Assembly (NCBI GenBank): GCA_938034385.1 | Contig: CALHLC010000063.1 | Coordinates: forward strand, 1-35,127 | Direction of reading: 5' to 3' | Source of the DNA: an uncultured Bacteriovoracaceae bacterium | GTDB lineage: Bacteria > Bdellovibrionota > Bacteriovoracia > Bacteriovoracales > Bacteriovoracaceae | Length of the DNA: 35,127 nt | Part shown: piece by piece, positions 1 through 11,435 of the stretch | Layout: the number at the start of each line of letters is the position of its first letter | Position numbering within the stretch: position 1 is the stretch's first letter | The notes under the pieces: model-generated | Database searches by the model: none | Told to the model about the DNA's origin: nothing | Seen by the model: the letters and a program-made list of their open reading frames with translations, nothing else | Program-made: the position numbers and the translations under genes

Positions 1-75
1 TAAGGATTCAATACCTCTTAAAATCTTAATAATTTGTTCTGGTTTAAAGTTTTTTCTTCCCATTTTCTTCTCCAT
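1..75 (-). CDS. IS3-type transposase OrfA, N-terminal 25 residues (partial)
   Basis: The minus-strand reading frame starts at ATG 75 (a second ATG lies at 63) and stays open to the window edge. The visible peptide begins MEKKMGRKNFKPEQIIKIL and ends RGIESL. The pattern K-x-F-x-x-E-Q-I-I-x-x-L is the classic first helix of IS3-family OrfA helix-turn-helix proteins, which bind the IS ends. The rest of OrfA and all of OrfB (the DDE catalytic part) would lie left of the window. The family call rests on this short motif only. Confidence 0.6.
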   Translation of the reverse strand, partial: MEKKMGRKNFKPEQIIKILRGIESL

Positions 76-126
76 TTGTTGCGTCCAGATAACGCAATGC
101 TTACGACATAACGACTGGACTAGTCA
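1..126 (-). mobile_element. End of an IS3-family-like insertion sequence (runs off left edge)
   Basis: Only the 5' end of the element is visible, reading leftwards on the minus strand. It consists of the transposase OrfA start (ATG at 75) plus about 50 bp of leader. A terminal TG-type end probably lies near 126, where the minus strand reads TGACTAGTCC. The exact tip cannot be fixed because the other end is outside the window and no target duplication can be checked. The sequence to its right is a truncated membrane-protein gene, which fits insertion into that gene. Confidence 0.55.
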
Positions 127-562
127 ATGGGGGAAGGTCAAATGCTCCTTTAAAGACGGGGTATGTTTGATAAACCATCTCTAAGGAGATCCAAGGGTTT
201 TCTCCAAGACTAAAAAAGCTTATGTTTAATCTTTGGGCAAGATAGCTATAATTTCCAAAGTCAGCATAATAAAGACCAATAATTCCTATACCGAATAAAA
301 ACTGTGTAACTATAAGAATACATTGAGTCAGGCGGTTCTTGGGGAGAAAGCTCAGAACAAAAAGTATACCCCCTATAAGAGCACTAACTCTTAAATCAAA
401 TTTAAATCCTAGATAAAGACTTTTTAGAATGTAATTTGTTGGGAGGGAATTAGGAGAGAATAAAAAATAAAAACTCATTCTGAAGAACAATAAAATACTT
501 AGAAATAGCAAGATAGACTTAAATATTAAATTAAACTTTGAAAACTTACTTGTTTGAGTCAT
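101..562 (-). pseudogene. Truncated LTA-synthase/sulfatase-like membrane protein (N-terminal fragment)
   Basis: An open frame of 153 codons from ATG 562 encodes a strongly hydrophobic segment with about four predicted membrane helices (residues ~10-35, 40-52, 60-75, 80-100). The loop YADFGNYSYLAQRLN that follows resembles the tail of the membrane domain in LtaS/OpgB-like sulfatases. Those enzymes are 500-700 residues, with an extracellular metal-dependent sulfatase domain that is absent here. The frame runs into the IS end near 126 and stops at 101, so the last ~8 residues are IS-derived. I infer insertional inactivation. The family assignment is moderate, because the catalytic domain cannot be seen. 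Confidence 0.55.
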
Positions 563-662
563 AAATCATGGCAATGGTACTTAATAATATTAGAATCTCA
601 TCTTAGTTGAACAGATGAATATTTAACAAGGAATATTTACTAAGTGAGATGCTTAAGATTGA

Positions 663-699
663 ACCTCTGGGTAAATAATATACATTTCCTCCCAGAGGT
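663..699. repeat. 9-bp perfect inverted repeat (hairpin) between two minus-strand genes
   Basis: Arms ACCTCTGGG (663-671) and CCCAGAGGT (691-699) enclose a 19-nt AT-rich loop. The hairpin sits just downstream of the stop codon (715) of the following minus-strand gene. It lacks a T-run on the minus strand, so it may be a weak transcript end or an RNA-stabilising hairpin rather than a canonical intrinsic terminator. On the plus strand it is followed by a short T-run (711-716). Confidence 0.45.
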
Positions 700-714
700 G
701 ATGTTAGTTCTTTT

Positions 715-1662
715 TTACTTTATGAGGAAATCCCACCAACTTTCGTTCACTTCAACATTATATGAATATTCAGGATAGCTCAGATTATCTAAGTCTACTT
801 CAGAAAAGCTTTCTTGAATTGTTTTCCATGAAGCTCCCCAGTCATATTCTCTCCAATTTTGTGGTTCATACCTAATAGAATACTTGAGCTGTACTTTAGC
901 AGTTTTAACTGGATATCCTCTTTTAGCACAAAATAGAGTTTCTAATTGTGGAGTCTGAAATGAACTGAGCTTTATATTATTGCTGATATTTGAAAATAGA
1001 TTTCCTAAGCTTTTTTCTTCATTAGTATCATAGAACTCATTTCCCCCTTCAACTTCAAGAGAAAGAAAATACCTAAGTTCATCTGCCTTATCATAATTTT
1101 TTAAAATATCTCCTCTGGCATCTGATCCATCGGTATTTAAAAATTGAACATCTTTTTTGGTAATATGAAAAATGCTTATCTCTTCTATTGCTTCCTGAAA
1201 ACGATTGAAGCTATTACGAAGTTCGCTTTTAGTGAGAAAGTTAAACGTGCTGTTTAAGTCTGCTACTTTAGTATCATCATTACGGTAATAATGATTAATA
1301 AAATCAATATGACTTGATTTCCCAGTCAAATGATCAATAGCAATTAAAGCAATTTGAAAATGTTGAAGTTTCATGAACTTCTTACGTTGAAACTTCATCT
1401 TCATGTTATCAAACGAGATCTTTGTTATTGAGTTTTTTATCAATGTCTTTTTAGATTTAATTTGATTTGTGCCGCAACTTTCTGAGCTGTCACTCATGGG
1501 TCTAGAAGTAGAACAACTAACTGAGATGATGAATTCAACATTTTCTAAGTCTTTCTGAGAGTGAGTTTTTACATTACTTTCCATCGCCGGAAATGATAAA
1601 GTAAATGCGTTTGCCATAGATGTAGTGATGAGTGAGAAAAGTAAATAATTAAGTATTTTCAT
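715..1662 (-). CDS. Secreted protein of unknown function (315 aa)
   Basis: I do not recognise the family. The start is ATG 1662, preceded by a GGAGG Shine-Dalgarno eight bases upstream; a TTG 15 nt further up would delete that spacing. Residues 1-20 (MKILNYLLFSLITTSMANA) are a textbook Sec signal peptide with an ANA-type cleavage site, so the mature protein is periplasmic or exported. The mature part is polar and lysine/serine-rich, with a few scattered cysteines (near SVSCSTS and ESCG, and one in TLFCAKRG). It has no membrane segments. The C-terminal ~60 residues are rich in Tyr/Trp (NWREYDWG, SYNVEVNESWWDF), suggesting a beta-rich domain. It is a single-gene transcript with no informative neighbour. 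Confidence 0.7.
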   Translation of the reverse strand: MKILNYLLFSLITTSMANAFTLSFPAMESNVKTHSQKDLENVEFIISVSCSTSRPMSDSSESCGTNQIKSKKTLIKNSITKISFDNMKMKFQRKKFMKLQHFQIALIAIDHLTGKSSHIDFINHYYRNDDTKVADLNSTFNFLTKSELRNSFNRFQEAIEEISIFHITKKDVQFLNTDGSDARGDILKNYDKADELRYFLSLEVEGGNEFYDTNEEKSLGNLFSNISNNIKLSSFQTPQLETLFCAKRGYPVKTAKVQLKYSIRYEPQNWREYDWGASWKTIQESFSEVDLDNLSYPEYSYNVEVNESWWDFLIK

Positions 1663-1773
1663 AAATTTATCCTCCAAAGTGAGAATAATCTAACATCAGC
1701 TCTAATGCGATGCCTTATCATTTGTTAACCTGTATATAGAATATATAAGCCTTAATTAAAGTGAATTGAAACG

Positions 1774-2811
1774 CTAATTCGAAGGGCTTTGAGCTTCATC
1801 TCTACCTAAAATATTTCCGCAATGAGGGTGAGACAAAACCCATTTTCGATAGTCTGATAATTTAGAAGTAATTATCTTATCGTTTTCTTCCTTGGAGACG
1901 TGTTCCCCCCAAGCCTGAATGACTAGAGCATCTATTTTGAAGGTTTTAACATTTGGTGCAGCTTTAAGAAAGAAGCGTATTTTAGGATCGAGTTTCTTGT
2001 CTTGAAAGTCCTCGTAAACATAGGACTGTACTGCATTCGTTGAGATGTTTTCAGAAGAGAGTAATAAAATCGCAATATTCATATCAATACAATTATTTTC
2101 AAAGTCAAAGCTATTAATTAAGTTATTTGACCATTTATGCGGCATGAATTGTATTTTTAACTTGCTCATAATTGGCATAGTTATTTTACGACAATGGGGA
2201 TTATTATGTAGGAGTTCACCCCATAATGACCAATTATTAATATGGCATTGGACATTACCAAAAGCTTGTTTTGTTTCCTCATCAAAAAATCCAGTAATAG
2301 TATTGGATTCCCTAATATCTCTATGTATATCTAGAAAAGGTGTGCCTTGAGGGAGCAATATTTCAATAAGCAAGCCTCCCATAAGTTCTTCTTTAGTGTA
2401 AGTATTTAGGCTATAATTATGTGCTGCTCTAGTCCCAAGAGCAAACTTTGAACTAGAGAATGGATCAAAGGTTGTATAAAGACCTGGGCCCATAGCTGCA
2501 TATCCTTCAAAGTCTACAATCTCTTCTCCCCAGAAATGATCTGTGGTCCACTTTATATATTCTTGTACTAATTGCTTATTTTTTTTTCTATGTTTTGAAT
2601 TTTCTTTTATGCCAGAACCTTCTTTTGTTCGCCAGTGATAAACGTACATGTCTTTATTTAATTTTTTATAAAGTTGATTTCTAATTAATGTTTGTTCGAA
2701 TAGACTTTGAGCGATTTTCAAATCGTCATTTGATGAAAGTTTTCGAAAACTTTGGGAACTAGAACAAGAATTATAGATAATTGAAAAAAATATAATGTAA
2801 AAAAAATTCAT
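1774..2811 (-). CDS. Lipoprotein of unknown function, possible ADP-ribosyltransferase-like fold
   Basis: The start chosen is ATG 2811, because it puts a clean lipoprotein signal at the N-terminus: MNFFYIIFFSIIYNSC, with lipobox YNSC and Cys16. A GTG at 2862 would prepend another hydrophobic stretch and has no visible ribosome site. The mature protein is about 330 residues. A segment around YVYHWRTKEG is followed ~60 residues later by YAAMGPGLYTTFDPFSSSKFA. The H...GLYT spacing is reminiscent of ADP-ribosyltransferase/RES-type folds, where a His and a Tyr bind NAD, but no confident catalytic Glu can be placed. Treat it as an unknown envelope lipoprotein with a weak fold hint. Confidence 0.6.
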   Translation of the reverse strand: MNFFYIIFFSIIYNSCSSSQSFRKLSSNDDLKIAQSLFEQTLIRNQLYKKLNKDMYVYHWRTKEGSGIKENSKHRKKNKQLVQEYIKWTTDHFWGEEIVDFEGYAAMGPGLYTTFDPFSSSKFALGTRAAHNYSLNTYTKEELMGGLLIEILLPQGTPFLDIHRDIRESNTITGFFDEETKQAFGNVQCHINNWSLWGELLHNNPHCRKITMPIMSKLKIQFMPHKWSNNLINSFDFENNCIDMNIAILLLSSENISTNAVQSYVYEDFQDKKLDPKIRFFLKAAPNVKTFKIDALVIQAWGEHVSKEENDKIITSKLSDYRKWVLSHPHCGNILGRDEAQSPSN

Positions 2812-2875
2812 AATTAATAGTATGACTGTTTTTATTAGTGTACAAGGCAAGAGAGGGTGCACTTAATTTAAACTT

Positions 2876-2912
2876 AAAAAAAAGAAACCATCATTCGATG
2901 GCTTCTCTTTTT
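2876..2912 (-). terminator. Intrinsic terminator (likely bidirectional)
   Basis: The stem AGAA-x-CCATC / GATGG-x-TTCT has a 4-nt loop (2893-2896) and is followed on the minus strand by eight T residues (complement of 2876-2883). It lies 33 bp beyond the stop codon of the 115-aa minus-strand gene. The plus-strand side also has a short T-run. Confidence 0.8.
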
Positions 2913-2944
2913 ATTGAAAAATGTATAATTTCCTTAGTAAGTAA

Positions 2945-3292
2945 TTATTGTATTTCAACAATATCGTTACAGCCACGCATTCTTCCTGATTGACCTTGAT
3001 ATTTTTTTACTTCACCTTCACTATCTTCAACAGTTACTACAATTGATCTATTAACACCTTCTAGACTGATTCTATGAGTTGTTTCACCTTGGCTATCTCC
3101 GATAGTGTAAGAATAAAAATCTCTTCCACGAAGATCTTCAGAGAACATAAAGTGTGTGTCAGTAGACTTTTTATAAAGTGAAAAAGCTGTAAGAACTTTA
3201 TCATCGTTAAGTTCTATTTCTTGTCCTCCAGGACAAGAAAATGCGATTGTGCTTAAAAAAAGTAGTGTAGAAATAGCAATGTTTTTCATCAT
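2945..3292 (-). CDS. Small secreted protein of unknown function (115 aa)
   Basis: The ATG-ATG start (3292/3289) follows AAAGGA. Residues 1-19 form a signal peptide (MMKNIAISTLLFLSTIAFS) ending right before Cys20-Pro-Gly-Gly. The FSC could be a lipobox, although the -3 to -1 residues (A-F-S) are not ideal. The mature domain of ~95 residues is predicted all-beta, with alternating strands (THFMFSEDL, YSYTIGDS, THRISLEG, SIVVTVED). A second Cys near the C-terminus (MRGCNDIVEI) could form a disulphide with Cys20. No family is recognised. It is monocistronic, with its own terminator downstream at 2876-2912. Confidence 0.65.
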   Translation of the reverse strand: MMKNIAISTLLFLSTIAFSCPGGQEIELNDDKVLTAFSLYKKSTDTHFMFSEDLRGRDFYSYTIGDSQGETTHRISLEGVNRSIVVTVEDSEGEVKKYQGQSGRMRGCNDIVEIQ

Positions 3293-3464
3293 TTTTCCTT
3301 TGTTATAATTAGTTTTTTAGCTTTTATGCTCTCGTTTTTTGTGCACCGTAGCATAAGAGTGCATTTTTTCCAATGCTGCTTGTAAAATATTCATGATCTA
3401 TGATTTAGAAACTACTGATATAGAATTAAGAGTAACGGACTAGGGAGAGGTTATTTATTAGGAA

Positions 3465-3511
3465 AATGGCACACCGGACAGGATTCGAACCTGTGACCTA
3501 CCGCTTAGAAG
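3465..3511. repeat. Attachment-site direct repeat distal to the tRNA (att core, left end)
   Basis: This is a 47-bp perfect copy of 11357-11403. It corresponds to the anticodon loop, 3' half of the anticodon stem, variable loop, T-arm, acceptor 3' strand and CCA of tRNA-Arg(TCT), minus strand. The identity begins at AATGGCACACCGG and ends at CGCTTAGAAG, and bases diverge abruptly on both sides. Outward (leftwards) from here is resident chromosome. Confidence 0.9.
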
Positions 3512-3543
3512 ACAGCTTCCCTATCCATTTGTACCCCATTGAT
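3512..3543 (-). pseudogene. Decayed 5' half of a tRNA-Arg joined to the att core
   Basis: Just inside the left repeat the minus strand still aligns with the 5' half of the intact tRNA. The D-loop run TGGATAG is kept at the same distance from the anticodon. The anticodon-stem 5' strand GCTGT differs from ACCGC by three transitions plus one change, and it still pairs with GCGGT through G-U wobbles. The D-stem no longer pairs and the acceptor 5' strand is not recognisable. So the mobile form's attP seems to have carried a whole, now degenerating, tRNA-like gene rather than only a 3' fragment. It is not a functional tRNA. Confidence 0.5.
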
Positions 3544-3615
3544 TGCAGATTTTGAAGTTAAATTGAAGAAAAACTCATCCTTGAGCTTGATTTCATCCTT
3601 CCGTGAGCTTTCTTA

Positions 3616-4332
3616 TTATTTTTTTGAGATTGTAAATGTTCGAGTTGAGCTACAGACACTGAGTTCCATTTGAGTGGGAGCATGTCTGCCATCAGTTTTA
3701 ACTTTTATGATGCTATTATTTTTATCTTTATTGATTGTGATGATTGAATCAGCAGCAGCTTCAAATCCAATTGAGCCAATTGCTTTGTCAGATGATTTAT
3801 TTGCGTGCGTAATGAAAACAATCGAGCACTGTGTCTCTCTGATTACCTCGGATATAGGTTCAAATAGAGCGTAAGAACTATTGTAAGAATCGAGATCTTC
3901 TATGTTGAGAAGGTTAACCATTGGGTCAATAACAATGCATTCTAGGCTGTATTTTGTGACTATGTGTTTTAGAAATTGCGCAGCTTCTTGTGGTGAAAGT
4001 GAACCCTTGAAGCTCTCTATAAAGAAATTATCTAAAGTTTCCACTTTCTTGTTCTGAAGTATTTGAAAAATATGGCTTTGCACTTCTGCTGGGTCTTCTT
4101 CTCCAATGATGTAGGCGGTATTCCTTCTCTTAATTTTTTTGCCGTTGAAATCAATACCTATGGACATAGAAATACAAATATCCCTAAGCAATGTACTTTT
4201 GTAGGATTTGGGTTTTGCTACAGCCAGTACAAGCTTGCTAGAATGAAGTAATCCAGTAAATAGTTCTTCCGATTTTGGAAACTCTTTGTTTAAGAATTCA
4301 TCTAATGTGTTTAATTTAAAATCTCGACTCAT
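3616..4332 (-). CDS. RepA/AAA_25-type ATPase (replication helicase-like)
   Basis: This 238-aa P-loop ATPase of the RecA/RepA/DnaB fold resembles plasmid RepA hexameric helicases and AAA_25 proteins. Motifs in order: a Walker A at residues 39-47 reading AKPKSYKST; a Walker B, CIVIDP, with Asp136; ITHANK at 174-179 (the family's His sensor); and GSIGFEAAADSI at 186-197, the conserved block before the last strand. Walker A is odd: the glycine before the catalytic Lys45 is Tyr44 (family pattern PKxGKS). The start is ATG 4332 with AGGAGG seven bases upstream. It is transcribed divergently from the polymerase-like gene across a 190-bp region with an inverted repeat, so the two probably form the element's replication module. 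Confidence 0.75.
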   Translation of the reverse strand: MSRDFKLNTLDEFLNKEFPKSEELFTGLLHSSKLVLAVAKPKSYKSTLLRDICISMSIGIDFNGKKIKRRNTAYIIGEEDPAEVQSHIFQILQNKKVETLDNFFIESFKGSLSPQEAAQFLKHIVTKYSLECIVIDPMVNLLNIEDLDSYNSSYALFEPISEVIRETQCSIVFITHANKSSDKAIGSIGFEAAADSIITINKDKNNSIIKVKTDGRHAPTQMELSVCSSTRTFTISKK

Positions 4333-4355
4333 CTTATACCTCCTGGGTGATAAGG

Positions 4356-4495
4356 GTTATGCAATAAGAGAAGTTCTTAATGCTTTAATGAATCATATTT
4401 ATTGTTTGTGCTCCCTTATTATTAAATGAATAAAAACGAATGCTTAGCGCCACTAAAGGTACTTAGAATTAAAAATAAATAGGATATTGCATAAC
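4356..4495. promoter_or_regulatory. Divergent promoter region with 11-bp inverted repeats; candidate operator or origin
   Basis: GTTATGCAATA at 4356-4366 is repeated as its exact reverse complement at 4485-4495. Each copy lies about 25 bp upstream of the start codon of one of the divergent replication genes (ATG 4332 and ATG 4523), and the AT-rich stretch between them holds both promoters. The symmetry suggests one DNA-binding protein that controls both genes, or initiator binding at an origin. No other exact copy was noticed in the element. Confidence 0.55.
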
Positions 4496-4522
4496 GCTCT
4501 TTTGTTGACTGGGAGGTTTTCT

Positions 4523-6052
4523 ATGAGCATGAATGTAAAATCTGAAAAATTAATTGAATTTCTGAAAAAGCGGAGCTACCGACCAAGAAAAGGCAACCTT
4601 GAGAAAATGAAATCAGAGCCTTGGTTTAAGAATGTCGTTAATGGAGTTTATGGAGAACTTTCTCCCAAAAGCCACAAAGAAAAAGCAGGAGCAATTCTTG
4701 AGTCACTCATTTCACATGTTTTAATGGCGGAGCAATCACAATGTCAGCTAATTTCACTTCGAACTTCATGTAATACAAGAGATAAGAGTGGTGAGAATGT
4801 TGAAGAGAGCGACTTTCTTCAAGTTTACTATTTCATCGAGCTTAAAGACTCGGATGGTAACAAGAGAAGTATTGGTAAAGACGGAATAAGAAGGCAAATA
4901 AAATTTTTAACAGAGAAGGGAGTTCTTCAAAAATACTACAAGCCTATCGTTGGGAAAATTTCACAGCGATATACTTTTGATATTTCATACTTTGAGCAAT
5001 TCATTTCCAAAGAACTTTTTGGAGAATATCAACTCTGGCGATGCAAAACTGTTGTAAATAGTAGAAGTGGTATTGTTTTTAAAATTAAGTCAGACTCTTC
5101 AGAATACCATAAGCTAGTTCATAGTAAATCTGAGGTTAAAACGAAATATAAAAAGAAGGGGAGAGGGAAAGTTGTTGATTACCACTACTTCTACTTAGAT
5201 TATAATAGTGTCAGAAATAGAGATGCGCTGATCAGAAATCTTAGTTTTTTAAATGACTATAATGGCTTTGTGGCTAAAAATGAGATCTATCTAAATGGGA
5301 AGCTTGTCTGCGGTTTAAAACTATGGAGGCAATTCTCAGATTCAGAATGTAAAGCATACGGAAGGTTTCATCATGGACTTCAAAATCTACCATCATCTTC
5401 GGTTTCTGTTGAGCCTCAGGAGTTACCAGTTAGCCACAGAAACCTTTTTTACCCAGGTCGAGAGTTAATCGAAATAAACGGAGAAGTTTGCGTAGAACTT
5501 GATTTTGGAGCAATGGTGCCTACCTTGTTATCATTGGAGCTTGGTTATGAACCAAGGAGTGCTGATGATATTTATTCAATTACTGGCGAGTACTCGTGTT
5601 TAAATTATTACTCAGGAGAATCGCTTGAAGAGAAGGTAAAAAATCGACGAAAATTCATTAAAACTTCTTTTAACATGCTTATAAATATTACGAATAAAAA
5701 TATTCAATGCATGACAATCGCTGTGATGAGCGAGTGCCGAAGTTATCTTGCTGAAGAAAATTACAAGAAGACTGAAAAGGTAGGGAGATCAGTAATTGAG
5801 CAAGTCATAGCTCAAAACCCACAAATCTCAGAATACAAAAATATGCTAAAAGATAAGCCATGCCTGTTTAAAGCAGAGAGTGATATTTGTATGAAAGTAT
5901 TAATTAAGATGATGAAGCAAGATATCTTGGTAATTCCAATTCATGACAGTTTTATCGTTGCAAAAAAACATAAAGGTGCCTTGAGAACGGCAATGCAGGA
6001 AGCTTTTCTGGAAAGCTATCCGCACTGGACGGGACTCCCTTCAATTAAATAG
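4523..6052 (+). CDS. Polymerase-fold replicase candidate (PolA/T7 RNAP-like motifs A, B, C)
   Basis: This 509-aa protein starts at ATG 4523, with GGGAGG seven bases upstream; a TTG at 4487 lacks a ribosome site. The N-terminal ~170 residues include a winged-helix-like block (GKDGIRRQIKFLTEKGVLQ). The C-terminal half carries the order of a family-A palm. Motif A is VELDFGAMVPTLLSLELG with Asp327. A motif B-like helix, RRKFIKTSFNMLIN, has Arg376 and Lys380 (R-x3-K). Motif C is IPIHDSFIV with His474-Asp475-Ser476. HDS rather than HDE is what single-subunit RNA polymerases carry, so DNA versus RNA polymerase (or a primase role) cannot be decided. Related unnamed plasmid and prophage proteins with an HDSFIV ending are familiar. 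The pairing with a RepA-like ATPase supports replication. Confidence 0.6.
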   Translation: MSMNVKSEKLIEFLKKRSYRPRKGNLEKMKSEPWFKNVVNGVYGELSPKSHKEKAGAILESLISHVLMAEQSQCQLISLRTSCNTRDKSGENVEESDFLQVYYFIELKDSDGNKRSIGKDGIRRQIKFLTEKGVLQKYYKPIVGKISQRYTFDISYFEQFISKELFGEYQLWRCKTVVNSRSGIVFKIKSDSSEYHKLVHSKSEVKTKYKKKGRGKVVDYHYFYLDYNSVRNRDALIRNLSFLNDYNGFVAKNEIYLNGKLVCGLKLWRQFSDSECKAYGRFHHGLQNLPSSSVSVEPQELPVSHRNLFYPGRELIEINGEVCVELDFGAMVPTLLSLELGYEPRSADDIYSITGEYSCLNYYSGESLEEKVKNRRKFIKTSFNMLINITNKNIQCMTIAVMSECRSYLAEENYKKTEKVGRSVIEQVIAQNPQISEYKNMLKDKPCLFKAESDICMKVLIKMMKQDILVIPIHDSFIVAKKHKGALRTAMQEAFLESYPHWTGLPSIK

Positions 6053-6065
6053 TTAAATAGAAGTG

Positions 6066-6093
6066 TTGACATATTTCTTCACGGTAGTAATAT
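6066..6093 (+). promoter_or_regulatory. Sigma70-type promoter
   Basis: A consensus -35 TTGACA (6066-6071), a 16-bp spacer and -10 TAATAT (6088-6093) start within 20 bp of the polymerase-like gene's stop. It would drive the 121-aa secreted protein from about 6100, leaving a ~95-nt leader. It is the best promoter match seen in the element. Confidence 0.65.
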
Positions 6094-6195
6094 CTCTTAA
6101 CATCGTGGGAGTTGCTTCTTTGCATCTGAGAGGCTCAAAAATAATTGAGCGACCACTAAACTTGATTTGGGTAATTCCAACGTAAGGAGATCTCT

Positions 6196-6561
6196 ATGAA
6201 GTATAACTTCTATGTACTTGCTGCATTTTTTTATTCATTTAACTTACTTTCAGATTGCAGAGTGAATAGCTTCGACCTTGAGCGAACCAACACTTCTGAT
6301 TTGACTAGCATTAACGATAGAGTACTTTTCCAGGAATTAGAAGGTAAAGAGCTGTGCCTTGGGTTCGAAGAGTTCTCTACTTGGAGCAAAAATAGAGGCA
6401 AATTTGTCTCTTACGATTTCAATGTCAAGAAGTATAGAATAACCTTAATTGATGCTGAAGGAGTAAAGCATAAAGGCTATTGCTCCAGGAAACTAACTGA
6501 GAGAGATTGTCCTCGGAGCTGTTCGAGCTCTTGGGTTGAATATCAGTGCTCTTTCAACTAG
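6196..6561 (+). CDS. Small secreted cysteine-rich protein (121 aa), unknown
   Basis: ATG 6196 is preceded by AAGGAG at a six-base spacing. Residues 1-19 (MKYNFYVLAAFFYSFNLLS) form a signal peptide, cutting before Asp-Cys. The mature ~100 residues hold six or more cysteines (near SDCRV, ELCLG, GYCSR, RDCPRSC, YQCSF), concentrated at the C-terminus, which is typical of a disulphide-stabilised periplasmic or exported protein. No family is recognised. It lies alone behind a strong promoter inside the mobile element, so it is cargo rather than a replication gene. A function in host envelope change or competition is possible but unsupported. Confidence 0.65.
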   Translation: MKYNFYVLAAFFYSFNLLSDCRVNSFDLERTNTSDLTSINDRVLFQELEGKELCLGFEEFSTWSKNRGKFVSYDFNVKKYRITLIDAEGVKHKGYCSRKLTERDCPRSCSSSWVEYQCSFN

Positions 6562-6599
6562 AGACCTTATTCAAGTATTAAAGAAAACCTCACAGTATA

Positions 6600-6645
6600 T
6601 GATAGAGAGATACTACGCCATCAAGGCGGGGTAATCTCGATATCA
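6600..6645. repeat. Long imperfect hairpin in the 6562-6811 intergenic region
   Basis: A 20-nt arm (6600-6619, TGATAGAGAGATACTACGCC) and a 21-nt arm (6625-6645) fold around a 5-nt loop. About 17 pairs form, interrupted by one mismatch, one bulge and a 2x2 internal loop. No T-run follows, so it is not a plain terminator. The rest of the 250-bp gap shows only a 24-codon ORF (6669-6743) that I do not support as a gene. Confidence 0.4.
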
Positions 6646-6811
6646 TTATTCTTCCTTAGGGTAAGAAAATGAATCTCAATAAGAAGCAAAGACTAAAGGC
6701 TGCATTCCCCCGACGTCTGTGGATTGTAGTGATAAAGCTTTAAAGAAAAAAGCAGTAATGGATATCATTAAAAACTGGTATTTTTCCAGACCTTAAAAGG
6801 TAACCCCAGTA

Positions 6812-7048
6812 TCAAGAAGCAGCTTTATTTCTAGACTGATAGAGCTCAGATCTGTTTTTACTCAAAGACTTTCTGTTTTCATAGTTAAATGTCTCAAGTA
6901 TAAACTCCATGACTGCAGTTCTTGTAATTCCCTCAGATTCACAGATTTTATTAAAATCATTAATAAGATCCACTGGTAATCTGAATGTGTAATTTTCTTT
7001 CTTTCCGAATGGTAAGCTTTGCTTCTTTAGATGTGCTGGTATTTTCAT
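6812..7048 (-). CDS. Ribbon-helix-helix DNA-binding regulator (78 aa)
   Basis: The call is based on the Arc/CopG-type pattern. A short basic strand, ENYTFRLP (residues 18-25), is followed by helix 1 (VDLINDFNKICESEG) and the turn plus helix 2 (ITRTAVMEFILETF), with a basic C-terminal tail. Such dimers insert the strand into the major groove at tandem half-sites and often repress their own gene. I chose ATG 7048: a TATAAT at 7060-7055 lies six bases upstream, so the transcript would start at or next to this ATG (leaderless). A GTG at 7075 has no Shine-Dalgarno and would place the start inside the operator repeats. It is divergent from the serine recombinase, which it may also control. Confidence 0.7.
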   Translation of the reverse strand: MKIPAHLKKQSLPFGKKENYTFRLPVDLINDFNKICESEGITRTAVMEFILETFNYENRKSLSKNRSELYQSRNKAAS

Positions 7049-7068
7049 AAGATTATTATAGCAACGTG

Positions 7069-7089
7069 AATGCACCCATAATGCACCCA
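7069..7089. promoter_or_regulatory. Candidate operator: two direct repeats of AATGCACCCA, 11-bp period
   Basis: AATGCACCCA occurs at 7069-7078 and again at 7080-7089, upstream of the TATAAT box of the RHH gene. An 11-bp period puts both half-sites on the same DNA face, as expected for a ribbon-helix-helix autorepressor. A related GTGCATTA appears farther right, before the serine recombinase. The binding assignment is inferred. Confidence 0.55.
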
Positions 7090-7224
7090 GGAAATATTAT
7101 CCACTGCTGATAAATGGTTATTGTAATTACTTAAGCCATTAGAAGTTGTAATCGCCATAAAAGATGGTCATAGTGCAAGTGCATTAACAAACATAAGGCT
7201 CGATATTTACATGGATACATAGCA

Positions 7225-7854
7225 ATGCCTTATGATTACATTATGAAAAATATTGCAGTTTATTTACGAACATCTACAGAAAAGACCAAGGGTTTAGATT
7301 CTCAATATCAGTCAATCTTGAATTCACTAGATTCAAGCCACAAAAGACCAGTATGCATTTACTCTGATTCAGGTATCTCTGGAGCAAAACTTAATAGAGA
7401 TGGTCTTAATGCTTTAAAGAATGATGTTGATTTGGAAAATATCTCGATGGTTATTACTTATTCATTTTCAAGAATCTCAAGATCTTTAAGAGATTTAATT
7501 AATCTTCTTGATTATTTTGATGAGAGGAAAGTGGTGGTTAAATCTATCACTGAAAATTTTGGGTTAGATACACCGAGTGGAAGGTTCGTCATTAATATAC
7601 TCGGCTCACTTGCTCAGTTTGAGAGATCGATAATCTCAGAGAGAATAAAGAGCGGAATGGCTGCAGCTAAGAAGCGTGGTTCAAGGATCGGGAAAGAGAG
7701 ATCCATTAATCATGACCTGGTTTTAAAATTAAGGTCTGAAAATCTAACATACCATCAAATTGCTACAATCGCTGGTTGCTCAAAAACATCAGCAAGGAGG
7801 ATTTGCCTCAAGTTTCATAACCCAAGCCTTATGGTCAACAAGGGTAAAGAGTAG
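7225..7854 (+). CDS. Small serine recombinase (resolvase/invertase family)
   Basis: This 209-aa enzyme makes a covalent phosphoserine link to DNA during site-specific recombination. The N-terminal catalytic domain starts with IAVYLRTSTEK, where Ser17 is the nucleophile. SFSRISRSLRDLINLL supplies the conserved arginines, and LGSLAQFERSIISERIKSGM is the start of the long dimerisation E-helix. A C-terminal helix-turn-helix (LTYHQIATIAGCSKTSARRIC) reads the DNA site. Length and architecture match resolvases and invertases, not large serine integrases. Starts at 7225 or ATG 7243 are both possible; neither has a clear Shine-Dalgarno. In an element with its own tyrosine integrase, its likely job is dimer resolution or a DNA switch. 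Confidence 0.85.
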   Translation: MPYDYIMKNIAVYLRTSTEKTKGLDSQYQSILNSLDSSHKRPVCIYSDSGISGAKLNRDGLNALKNDVDLENISMVITYSFSRISRSLRDLINLLDYFDERKVVVKSITENFGLDTPSGRFVINILGSLAQFERSIISERIKSGMAAAKKRGSRIGKERSINHDLVLKLRSENLTYHQIATIAGCSKTSARRICLKFHNPSLMVNKGKE

Positions 7855-7893
7855 TGAGGATCAGTGAGTAATGTCATGGGTACTTGTTTACAT

Positions 7894-7933
7894 GGATGAG
7901 CCAGTAGATAAGTGGATGATGAAGTAGATATCG
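7894..7933. repeat. Two imperfect 20-bp tandem repeats upstream of the XRE gene
   Basis: The pattern GGATGAnnnAGTAGATA occurs at 7894-7910 and at 7914-7930, an exact 20-bp period. It lies in the 115-bp gap between the recombinase and the XRE-type regulator. It could be the regulator's operator or iteron-like initiator sites. Confidence 0.45.
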
Positions 7934-7969
7934 ATGAATATTAAATCATAAATCACGAGAAGATATTTA

Positions 7970-8269
7970 ATGAATAATTTTAATAAAATCATTAAGGAAA
8001 AATTTGATGGCAAAGAGAACCTCTCCAGGCTTTCAAAAGAGCTCCAAATTAACCCGAAGACTCTGAATTCATGGCTCTCAGGAGTCAATCCTAAGCTCAC
8101 AGAAGCCAACTTGAGAGCATTCGAAAGAATTGCCACTTACATCGGAATGGATCTCTCAGAGCTTCTCGTAGGCGAAAAACAGAGCTCTCATGAGGTCGTA
8201 TCCAGTCTTCAATTTAAAGATCAAGGTAATACATATTTTGTAAAAATCACCAAGCAAAAAGGAGAATAG
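7970..8269 (+). CDS. XRE-like helix-turn-helix regulator (99 aa)
   Basis: The N-terminal half is a lambda-Cro/XRE-type helix-turn-helix: KENLSRLSKELQINPKTLNSWLSG (about residues 15-38), followed by a dimerisation helix (LRAFERIATYIGMDLSELL) typical of the family. The C-terminal ~30 residues form a short beta-rich tail (LQFKDQGNTYFVKITKQ). It is the first gene of an apparent three-gene operon. Its stop codon is one base before the ATG of the next gene, whose Shine-Dalgarno lies inside this gene's end, so translation should be coupled. It probably controls the cargo operon and possibly its own 20-bp repeat region upstream. Confidence 0.75.
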   Translation: MNNFNKIIKEKFDGKENLSRLSKELQINPKTLNSWLSGVNPKLTEANLRAFERIATYIGMDLSELLVGEKQSSHEVVSSLQFKDQGNTYFVKITKQKGE

Positions 8270-8270
8270 G

Positions 8271-8768
8271 ATGAAAGCATTAGGATTATTTTTAACATTA
8301 TTAACAACCAGTTGCGCAACTATGATGACTGGAGGAGAAAAAGCTGAATTGACCCAGTGGGGAGATTTTTCACTTCACCTCGATGAAAGAGGTTGGATTA
8401 CGTTTTATGGTAAAACAAATGGTTACAACGCAAGTTCAGCAAAGGTCGAAAGCTTGAAGAGTAAAATAAGCACTATTCTTAAGTGGGATCAAACTTCCAG
8501 AAGATCAAAAAGTACAATTAACAAGAAGGTGGGAGCTCTCTCTATTGGTGGACCCGTGGTTTATTTTGTAAAAACTCAAAATGGAATTGCTTACGGCAAG
8601 GTCTGTTTCAGAAATCATGAATATCAACACATTGAAGATACTAAGTGCTCAGTAGCAACAACTGATACCCTAAGGCGCATGCTCAGTAGCGACCTAAGTA
8701 ATAGCTCGGTTCAAAAAGTTAAAAATGAAATTCAGAATAAAAGAAGTCTCTCCTCTTCTCTAAACTAG
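8271..8768 (+). CDS. Element-borne lipoprotein of unknown function (165 aa)
   Basis: The N-terminus MKALGLFLTLLTTSC is a lipoprotein signal with lipobox TTSC (Cys15). The following residues A-T-M give no aspartate retention signal, so outer-membrane sorting is expected. The mature ~150 residues contain a likely beta-rich domain (DFSLHLDERGWITFYGKTNGY, VVYFVKTQNGIAYGKVCF) with two cysteines (KVCFRN and TKCSV) that may pair. No family is recognised. It lies between an XRE regulator and a VasI-like protein with 1-bp and ~10-bp gaps, so the three are one transcript. An envelope or surface role is inferred from location only. Confidence 0.65.
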   Translation: MKALGLFLTLLTTSCATMMTGGEKAELTQWGDFSLHLDERGWITFYGKTNGYNASSAKVESLKSKISTILKWDQTSRRSKSTINKKVGALSIGGPVVYFVKTQNGIAYGKVCFRNHEYQHIEDTKCSVATTDTLRRMLSSDLSNSSVQKVKNEIQNKRSLSSSLN

Positions 8769-8777
8769 GTGGTAATG

Positions 8778-9350
8778 ATGAAAAACTTATTTTTAGCACT
8801 GCTCTTCATGCTTGGCTTTAATTCTTTCTCTCAAGGTGAATGTTCAACTATCTCCAATAGAGACTCAAGGCTCAATTGTTACGATAAGCATTTTAAGAAG
8901 TCTCCACGCTCTATTGCGAGTAAAGGAAAGGGGAAATGGTTAAGCAGTGTCACAACTAATCCTGTGAATGATTCAAGGACTGTGACTCTTTACTTAACGG
9001 CTGACTCTGGAAAAAGCATCTATGGCAAAAAGGCGAGCCTTATCATTAGATGCCAGTCAAATAAAACCGAAATGTTTGTGAGTTTTCATGCATTCCTAGG
9101 GATGGATTCAGCTCAAGTAACCTCTAGAGTGGATAAAAGAAAGGCGATGGTTGAGAATTGGGGGTTATCCACAGATAAGAAAGCCGCATTTTACCCTGGT
9201 TCTCCAATACCAGAGATCAAGAGAATGTTAAATGGAAAGGCTTATGTCGCTCAGGTTACTCCTTATAGTGCTACCCCAATCACTGCAATCTTTGATATTA
9301 AAGGGATTGATGTTGCGATCAAGGAGCTAAGGAAGACTTGCTCTTGGTAA
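8778..9350 (+). CDS. VasI/TagO-like (type VI secretion accessory family) secreted protein
   Basis: ATG 8778 follows AGGTGG at five bases; ATG 8775 and GTG 8769 are alternatives. A signal peptide (about residues 1-19) is followed by ECSTISNRDSRLNCYDKHF, the C-x-x-I-x-x-x-x-x-R-L-x-C-Y-D opening of the VasI/TagO family (PF11319, TIGR03360 type). Then come the DSRTVTLYL strand, LIIRC, and the closing FDIKGIDVAIKELRKTCSW, matching the family's F-D-x-x-G-x-x-x-A-x-x-x-L-R-x-x-C-x-W end. Family members accompany type VI secretion clusters in the periplasm, but stand-alone copies also occur. No tss gene is present here, so this is an orphan and its role in the element is unknown. Confidence 0.75.
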   Translation: MKNLFLALLFMLGFNSFSQGECSTISNRDSRLNCYDKHFKKSPRSIASKGKGKWLSSVTTNPVNDSRTVTLYLTADSGKSIYGKKASLIIRCQSNKTEMFVSFHAFLGMDSAQVTSRVDKRKAMVENWGLSTDKKAAFYPGSPIPEIKRMLNGKAYVAQVTPYSATPITAIFDIKGIDVAIKELRKTCSW

Positions 9351-9360
9351 GCTCCTTCAT

Positions 9361-9828
9361 TTATGATGCTTTTTTCTTAATTTTGCTTAGTATAGCATCG
9401 GTTAGTTTTTGAAGGTTTTCCACATCTATTGTTTGTGTGTTTGCTTTACCACTTACGCTCCAGACGACTTCGTACTGTCTGTGAAAGGCTAGGTAGTCTT
9501 CGAGTGTTGCTCTCATGGCTTTACACCTCATGAATACTGTCGAGCTGACAGGTCTTTCATGCTCTCTCCAGCTTCTCGAGTTTTCTCCAATAAGGGGAAA
9601 GTGAAAATAGTCAATTATGAAATTTATAAATTCATCTTTTGATGCTACAAGTGTTGCATCTTCCTCTATCTTGTTAAGGTACTGTAGTGCTTTCCTTCCT
9701 CTTCTCTCAAAGTCTTCAATGCTTAAATTAAACTTTAATATCCCATTTCTGATCACTTTCGGGTAGGCATATCGATATGCATCCTTATTTAGGCTTTCTT
9801 CAATTGAAATTGTTTTTAGTTTATCCAT
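9361..9828 (-). CDS. Cytoplasmic protein of unknown function (155 aa)
   Basis: ATG 9828 is preceded by AGGAGG (nine to ten bases upstream), a strong site. The product has no signal peptide or membrane segment, is basic and mostly helical, and ends KIKKKAS. A Trp/Arg-rich stretch in the middle (GENSRSWREHERPVSSTVFMRCKAMRATLEDYLAFHRQYEVVW) is the most distinctive part. I do not recognise the family. It is convergent with the VasI-like gene (10 bp apart) and reads in the same direction as nothing immediately downstream, so it is an independent transcription unit of the element. Confidence 0.6.
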   Translation of the reverse strand: MDKLKTISIEESLNKDAYRYAYPKVIRNGILKFNLSIEDFERRGRKALQYLNKIEEDATLVASKDEFINFIIDYFHFPLIGENSRSWREHERPVSSTVFMRCKAMRATLEDYLAFHRQYEVVWSVSGKANTQTIDVENLQKLTDAILSKIKKKAS

Positions 9829-10020
9829 TCTTGCCTACCTCCTCACTTGAAATGTAAAAATAGATATTACGACAGAATTTAAAATCGACAAAAAGTATGC
9901 GCTAACTGCTCTTCGCTTTATTACTGAGTTTTTAATTGTTGCCAAGAATCATCAGCACATGAGCTTATTCTTGTATTGTTTCCCTCTACTCTGGTAAGCT
10001 AATCTAATGAAAGATTTTGT

Positions 10021-11220
10021 CTAAGAAACCTTCTTTGAAGGGATATAGATGCTTTCCTCGAATTTCCTGAAGTCTTTTAAGTATTTCATGGTTGTTCTTA
10101 AGTCAGAGTGACCCATTGCTAACTGAATGTCAGAGTGAGAAATTTCAAGTTTTTGCATATCTCTGAATAAATTAGAGCAAAATGAGTTCCTTAAATTGTG
10201 AAAAGTGAAGCGTAAATTCAAAATTTTCATTAAAGCTGACCATGACTTAGTAACCGTGTCTGGGTGTAGTTGAGGGATATCTTGAATATGACTATGAACT
10301 TCATCCAAGTTACCCTCTGTGTAGAAATGAGGGATTTTTCTAAACTTTTTACCCCACTTAAGTTCTTTTAGGCTCTTTGTATCTTTCACTTGTTTCTCAA
10401 TGTAGAGACAGCTATTCCGAAGATTACCTGTGCTTAGTGCGAGGCATTCGGATCTTCTCAGACCGTACTTGTAACTTAGCCATATAAGAGAGTGTATATT
10501 GATTGGCTGTTGAGCTTGAGGAATGTTTTTGTACTCTTTTGAGCATGCTGCAAGGATTGTTTGAATTTGCTCATCAGAAATATAATCCTCTCCACTCAGC
10601 CTTTTGTCTTTGTGCTTGAATGTTTCCTTTCTTTTCCTTTCATATTTACGAACTCTTTCAGTAAGTAGCAAAGGGAAAGAGAATTTGAATTTATCAATCT
10701 TCCCAAGACTTTCTTCATTTAGAAATTGAAAAAACAGATTTAAAGCGATTTTTATGGATTTCATCGTTTCAAGAGATAATTGCTTTTTTATGAATGATTC
10801 GACTAATTTATTCTGTGAGGAGATACTTTGCCACTGCAAATAATCAACAATTCCTTGAGCCTCAAAGTACTCTATAATATGCATTCTCACGTAGCTAACT
10901 GTTTCCCTGGAATATCTTTTGTTGTCTGTTCTTTTAAAAACCCAATTATAGAAATCAATATTGAAGCTTTTTGTTTTAAGGAATGCTGTTTTTATTGACC
11001 AATTTTTTTTAGCTTCTTCCTCTCTCAGTATTCTGTGGTTTACCCTTTTTAGGAATTCGTCGATTTTTTCTTTGCTAGTGCAGATATCTTTGTATTTATT
11101 ATTGGGGTATCTCTCTAGTTTCTTCCTGCCTTCAGCGGTTATAACTTCTCGGCGAATATAATACCGAGCCATGGATTTATCCCATATTCCGTACCACTTG
11201 GATTTTTTCTTGTTTTTCAT
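10021..11220 (-). CDS. Tyrosine recombinase (phage-type integrase) of the element
   Basis: This 399-aa integrase catalyses integration into and excision from the tRNA-Arg gene next door. I chose ATG 11220, with AGGGGA six bases upstream; a TTG at 11298 lacks a ribosome site. An N-terminal arm-type/core-binding region (~1-215) precedes the catalytic domain. All active-site residues are visible: Arg255 (YGLRRSE), His341 and Arg344 (HNLR), His371 (MGHSDL) and the Tyr380 nucleophile (MKYLKDF). It is complete and probably active. It lies with its start toward the tRNA, 139 bp from it, so its promoter sits between the att site and the gene, as in many tRNA-targeting islands. Confidence 0.9.
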   Translation of the reverse strand: MKNKKKSKWYGIWDKSMARYYIRREVITAEGRKKLERYPNNKYKDICTSKEKIDEFLKRVNHRILREEEAKKNWSIKTAFLKTKSFNIDFYNWVFKRTDNKRYSRETVSYVRMHIIEYFEAQGIVDYLQWQSISSQNKLVESFIKKQLSLETMKSIKIALNLFFQFLNEESLGKIDKFKFSFPLLLTERVRKYERKRKETFKHKDKRLSGEDYISDEQIQTILAACSKEYKNIPQAQQPINIHSLIWLSYKYGLRRSECLALSTGNLRNSCLYIEKQVKDTKSLKELKWGKKFRKIPHFYTEGNLDEVHSHIQDIPQLHPDTVTKSWSALMKILNLRFTFHNLRNSFCSNLFRDMQKLEISHSDIQLAMGHSDLRTTMKYLKDFRKFEESIYIPSKKVS

Positions 11221-11356
11221 AAAGCTTCCCCTTTTGAGTATCGGTTTTATGGGAAGCTCACTTGATTTAAGTTGTGAATTTGGATATTGACCATCCAAGA
11301 TAGTTAAATTTTACCATCCAAAAAAGTCTTCTAAATGTGTGTGAAATGCTTTTGTT

Positions 11357-11435
<79 letters not shown>

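Follow-up and report, generated by a model that had tools for sequence, protein, structure and literature searches.

A real polymerase-fold gene, of an enzyme kind already known, lies in a new host setting, the DNA of a Bdellovibrionota bacterium, at positions 4523 to 6052 of the window, the whole 35,127-nucleotide stretch of DNA analysed here. The likeliest reading of the locus is that this gene, carried on an element integrated at tRNA-Arg, encodes a minimal TV-Pol/divPolA2-type polymerase of family A, which would act as a primase-polymerase to replicate the excised element, with the neighbouring ATPase as a possible helicase. We are practically certain of the family-A polymerase fold and have little doubt that the protein is a divPolA2/TV-Pol family member. 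An earlier note, made from the DNA letters alone, had pointed to an unnamed two-gene module. The family already bears two names, TV-Pol (PMC2579912) and divPolA2 (PMC11348598), and the real unit exceeds two genes: it is the whole 7.9-kb element. Such minimal polymerases are carried by many mobile elements and phages and are mostly annotated as hypothetical. The present analysis ties phage divPolA2, integrase-linked chromosomal copies and the window element into one family with near-invariant residues.

The polymerase gene and its fold

The polymerase ORF (4523-6052, +) opens with an ATG preceded by a good Shine-Dalgarno sequence (GGGAGG) and encodes 509 residues; the TTG at 4487 that the ORF finder proposed is a less probable start. 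It is divergent from the ORF of a 238-residue ATPase (3616-4332, -), 190 bp away, in the arrangement that the earlier note had described. The residues which that note assigned to the palm were also read correctly: D327 in motif A, R376xxxK380 in motif B and H474-D475-S476-F477 in motif C. Beside these motifs the protein has a hairpin arginine (R281) and, in the fingers, D349xY351. The protein has no Pfam match (DNA_pol_A PF00476 and PF00940 included) and no NCBIfam match, and a sequence search of the PDB with the single sequence or with a profile gave no polymerase match. Its PHROGs match is phrog_4756, function unknown (E 1e-26), a profile that also matches ordinary PolA genes with an HDE motif C in the relatives (E ~1e-3 to 1e-5). 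The N-terminus, which the earlier note had described as winged-helix-like, yields weak matches to PadR profiles (E 0.009-0.02), in a part where model confidence is low. No plasmid homologue was found, and a search of viral contigs with the single polymerase sequence found nothing. A defence role was considered and rejected, PADLOC giving no match.

The earlier note had proposed a palm of family A on the strength of motifs A, B and C, and profile comparison places this likeness beyond chance. Aligned with hhalign, the family matched DNA Pol I (25 PolA sequences) at E 1.7e-5 over 212 columns, against E 0.54-0.94 for column-shuffled controls and 0.34 for a reversed one. R281, D327, D349, R376/K380 and HDSF each fall opposite their Pol I counterparts with the order kept, R281 being aligned with the TGR...NLQNIP hairpin. 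Against nine T7-like RNA polymerases the family scored E 2.1e-4, in an alignment limited to 51 columns at and around motif C. Since PolA scores only E 0.03 against the same nine sequences, the family lies between Pol I and the T7-like RNA polymerases, where Iyer et al. placed the TV-Pols in 2008 (PMC2579912). When the 113-member family HMM was run over 6709 ORFs, the non-family matches at E<0.1 were PolA only, plus a single companion fragment from a locus that is represented twice (L040/L097).

The earlier note had called for structure prediction and a fold search. For each of the two models built, every one of the 50 top-ranked PDB matches is a family-A DNA polymerase (enzymes such as Taq, Bst, Aquifex, apicoplast, theta and nu; E down to 9e-5). 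In the full-length model (90 sequences) confidence is high over most of the C-terminal 280 residues and low in the first 220; the model of the core (102 sequences) reaches a pLDDT of 86 and a pTM of 0.86. The TM-scores of the core are modest (0.35-0.54), and the likeness is therefore one of palm and fingers, not of a whole polymerase. In the models D327 is found where strand 321-328 ends, and the hairpin strands 470-473 and 476-480 enclose D475, a placement that is palm topology as predicted. For comparison with the two-helix coiled-coil thumb of TV-Pols, the models show one confident long helix (233-251) ahead of the R281 hairpin. The best BFVD matches were mostly uncharacterised phage proteins of equal size, with a 'DNA polymerase' of Rheinheimera phage Barba31A at rank 6.

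The catalytic core is close to invariant across the family alignment (n=113). R281 and K380 are present in all 113 sequences, D327 and Y351 in 112, R376 in 111 and D349 in 101; D475 also stands in 112, a count to be read with the fact that most relatives were retrieved by an HDSFI peptide pattern, so that conservation of motif C was partly selected for. This pattern was derived from a six-sequence subset, the widest alignment being too diverse for a pattern search. Relatives retrieved without it show motif C as well, the exceptions being YDSF in locus L008 and FDEV in the phage protein AUR84708. Homologues with the HDSFIV ending are annotated as hypothetical, just as the earlier note said. At several loci polymerase copies lie side by side or nearby: two adjacent in L106 (7197-10117), two in L103 and three in L063.

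Two positions of the window protein stand out. At the position of the Pol I steric gate (Glu710; D+5) the family has His (87/113) or Gln (14/113), and the window protein alone among the 113 has Val (V332). At K+8 in motif B, the position of Tyr766 in Pol I and Tyr639 in T7 RNA polymerase, 104 of the 113 have Asn, the window protein among them (N388). At positions 332 and 388 the protein resembles neither DNA Pol I nor T7 RNA polymerase, and these two positions may, judging from the residues, decide the choice of sugar. The unique Val, where 101 of 113 sequences have His or Gln, could also be taken as a mark of decay, as could the long branch on which the window protein lies: its identity to all relatives is ~20-33%, and the family tree gave it no supported sister group. 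A decayed or inactive relative retained as a DNA-binding initiator is nevertheless very improbable, as the metal-binding and fingers residues are all intact, and so is the ORF.

The same features bear on a rival reading in which the enzyme uses NTPs and either is an RNA polymerase or makes RNA primers, a possibility raised for divPolA2, for which secondary structural matches to RNA polymerases were reported (PMC11348598). The earlier note had likened HDS to single-subunit RNA polymerases and set it apart from the HDE of DNA polymerase I. This is right for the letters HDSF, which with the preceding D/E-S are common to T7-like RNA polymerases, and for the 51-column stretch around motif C; it does not extend to the whole core, which is nearest to DNA polymerases by profile and fold. 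The occupants of the steric-gate position (V332 here, His or Gln in most relatives) also favour NTP use. Asn388 is unlike either enzyme, no promoter-recognition domain was found, and no RNA polymerase is among the top 50 PDB fold matches of either model. The mobile context is tied to recombinases, and CCPol, the staphylococcal TV-Pol, requires dNTPs for priming (PMC7581432). On balance we consider an RNA polymerase improbable, and a primase-polymerase of the TV-Pol/divPolA2 type, which may use dNTPs or NTPs, remains the preferred reading.

The 7.9-kb element at tRNA-Arg

The polymerase gene belongs to an integrative element of 7.9 kb (3465-11419) at tRNA-Arg(TCT), delimited by att repeats and carrying a tyrosine integrase and a serine recombinase. 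attL (3465-3527, -) is a displaced 3' part of tRNA-Arg and a direct repeat of 11357-11419 (63 nt, 92%, the first 47 nt identical); it overlaps a tRNA remnant at 3470-3542 that scores 30 bits in Rfam. attR, identified from the tRNA call and the repeat, lies inside the intact tRNA-Arg (TCT) gene (11357-11435, -). Three congeners (G001-G003) have the tRNA-Arg without the element, followed directly by another conserved gene, and DNA similarity on the right side starts at the tRNA. On the left, positions 1-3465 gave no DNA match to the stretches of the congeners used for comparison, so that the match is exact at the right junction only. The conserved gene that follows the congener tRNA is on contig C40 in the window genome. 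The contig break has the look of an insertion: the left end of the window (1-565) holds the start of an IS3-like orfA and the end of C40 a transposase-like end, and, read by eye, these adjoin two pieces that seem to belong to one sulfatase/LTA-synthase-like gene interrupted by an IS. With the two contigs joined through this gene, ~3.4 kb of further DNA would separate the element from the conserved gene. No second copy of the element was found in the genome.

The tyrosine integrase (10021-11223, -; PF00589 E 3e-14) adjoins the tRNA, and the small serine recombinase of resolvase/invertase type (7243-7854, +; PF00239 E 3e-36) is also encoded in the element. Regulatory genes encode an RHH/Arc-like small regulator (6812-7051, -; PHROG transcriptional repressor, E 1e-4), a Cro/CI-type HTH regulator with a homologue in the element of genome G122 (7970-8269, +) and, more weakly, an HTH-like ORF (9361-9828). 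Two exported-protein-like ORFs of 165 and 193 aa occupy 8271-9350 (+); the second (8769-9350, +) belongs to the VasI family (PF11319 E 1e-12), known elsewhere for its association with type VI secretion.

Behind the polymerase gene stands a full-length TPP riboswitch aptamer (6095-6205, +; RF00059, 62 bits, E 1.2e-10), the 3' strand of which covers the Shine-Dalgarno sequence and start codon of a 121-aa ORF (6196-6561, +) with a signal-peptide-like N-terminus and no family. It is the sole TPP riboswitch found in the genome, an unexpected thing for a mobile element to carry; the genome gave no ThiC match, and no TPP riboswitch was found in ten related loci.

The ATPase (3616-4332, -) is, as the earlier note proposed, a replication-type RepA-like AAA_25 protein of RecA fold. 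Its AAA_25 domain scores 66.5 bits against a cut-off of 27 (E 3e-18), and it matches phage primase/helicase PHROGs and phage RepA/RecA-like ATPases (E down to 2e-12), one of them annotated as a RepA-like helicase. In its Walker A motif, AKPKSYKST, Tyr replaces the usual final Gly of the P-loop. The AAA_25 homologue in genome G246 has the usual GKS in its P-loop. Between the two genes, the arms of a perfect inverted repeat of 11 bp, GTTATGCAATA, occupy 4356-4366 and 4485-4495, one near each start codon of the divergent pair, which makes 4356-4495 a candidate operator. By rough estimate an exact 11-bp inverted repeat would be expected ~0.01 times in 190 bp of such AT-rich DNA. A promoter scan found fewer promoter-like sites than in shuffles.

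Recurrent neighbours and the proposed role

The partner that recurs beside the polymerase is a recombinase. Of the 124 loci that hold a relative, 61 have a tyrosine recombinase close to the polymerase and 26 have a serine recombinase there; the recombinase clusters were made by BLAST, and the larger was named tyrosine recombinase through a G122 protein that matches the window integrase (E 1e-31). When neighbour proteins other than recombinases were scanned, AAA_25 was found in 1 of 108, and many of the neighbours are cargo: methylases, GmrSD, HipA and IrrE peptidases. The ATPase was therefore rejected as a conserved partner, although very distant ATPases could escape these searches. AAA_25 stands near the polymerase in two cases only, the window and G246. 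The latter is a comparable element, with an AAA_25 ATPase, a small serine recombinase, the polymerase, a large serine integrase and a tRNA. G122 has the polymerase, an SF2-helicase-like protein (weak, E 0.005), a Cro-type regulator and a tyrosine integrase beside a tRNA; the helicase-like partner thus varies. No att repeats of at least 14 nt were found in the G122 and G246 stretches examined. The suggestion that ATPase and polymerase form a minimal module did not hold, as recombinase and polymerase recur together whereas the two-gene pair is not conserved.

We propose that the tyrosine integrase would excise the element as a circle, on which the polymerase would make its own primer and extend it from an origin within the element, by analogy with CCPol and its partner MP in SCCmec. 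The divergent AAA_25 ATPase might load onto or unwind the DNA, and the serine recombinase could resolve multimers or invert DNA. One regulator may control both divergent genes through the inverted repeat. Priming and replication of the element by the polymerase are probable in our judgement. This role is favoured because CCPol with MP is a proven primase-polymerase in a mobile element and because the ATPase is related to phage helicase/primase ATPases. No replication origin was identified in the element, which counts against a replication role, and no SSB-like partner, which counts against CCPol-like priming. The lack of conservation of the ATPase and the Tyr in its P-loop count against its being a helicase for the polymerase, a part that we assign to it tentatively. 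In a bolder version the locus would be self-contained for replication: the TV-Pol-type polymerase would have a RepA-family ATPase as its partner, in place of a D5 helicase or an OB-fold protein, and, having neither the steric-gate Glu nor the motif B Tyr, would begin new strands with ribonucleotides or accept either sugar; we think this unlikely.

The recurrent pairing with an integrase or serine recombinase, amid otherwise variable cargo, is also what would be expected if the enzyme were not an origin primase and served instead in repair and gap filling, or were coupled to recombination or replicative transposition. Replicative transposition was proposed for TV-Pols by Iyer et al. (PMC2579912); the divPolA2 authors favour repair or RNA synthesis, as the phages carry another replicative polymerase (PMC11348598). 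Against this, the att repeats at the tRNA point to conservative integration by the tyrosine recombinase, and the element is present in the one copy found. A repair or transposition enzyme accordingly seems rather improbable, and a primase-polymerase of the excised element is the reading that we retain. The choice between primase, repair enzyme and RNA polymerase is directly testable on so compact an element.

Comparison with known systems

The functional precedent is CCPol, the staphylococcal TV-Pol of SCCmec, a proven DNA primase-polymerase that primes only with MP, a small OB-fold partner (PMC7581432); pairs of A-family polymerases with SSB are a related case (PMC10061031). No assays of such a minimal polymerase were found outside SCCmec. 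The window system can be likened to CCPol-MP by description, both having a small family-A polymerase without active exonuclease on a mobile element beside an ATPase/helicase; it differs in that CCPol needs MP, and no OB-fold partner was identified in the window element. With Pol I and the T7-like RNA polymerases the protein shares palm and fingers motifs, the profile match being to Pol I and the motif C match to RNA polymerases, but it is without exonuclease domains and seemingly without a standard thumb, and has Asn for the motif B Tyr and, as a family, His, Gln or Val for the steric-gate Glu. The ATPase shares the AAA_25 domain with the RecA-fold RepA/AAA_25 ATPases of phages and plasmids and is related to those of phages; it is short, has a variant P-loop and is no more than a candidate for hexameric 5'-3' helicase activity.

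The phage proteins named divPolA2 (Virol J 2024, 21:200, PMC11348598) are tied to the window protein by a direct sequence match. The family HMM, built with the window protein included, matches their representative AUR84708, from Vibrio phage 1.063.O, with E 7e-55 across nearly all of that protein, and HMM and tree together show that divPolA2 and the integrase-linked chromosomal copies are one family. divPolA2 and the window protein both have the palm core, no exonuclease and a non-homologous N-terminal globular domain. They differ in motif C (FDEV in AUR84708, HDSF in the window protein) and in setting: divPolA2 comes from large tailed phages, beside another polymerase, and the window polymerase from the chromosome, on a 7.9-kb element that also encodes an integrase, a resolvase and an ATPase.

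We equate this family with TV-Pol from the features that the two share, in place of a direct match with one of the 2008 sequences. Ma-LMM01 gp030, guessed as a TV-Pol yardstick, scored 2.5 bits and is either the wrong gene or too distant. TV-Pols are stand-alone proteins of 400-600 aa without a nuclease, and Iyer et al. listed the same conserved residues and described resolvase or integrase neighbours (PMC2579912). The window protein has the hairpin Arg (R281), the two palm Asp (D327, D475) and the fingers Asp (D349) with RxxxK, and both a gamma-delta-type resolvase and a lambda-type integrase are present in the window. No D5 domain was found among the window proteins scanned with Pfam, and an AAA_25 ATPase stands in place of the D5 helicase, which is linked or fused in a subset and does not define stand-alone TV-Pols. 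To these known systems the window adds a new host setting, the borders of the element, the ATPase next to the polymerase and two unusual residues, at 332 and 388.
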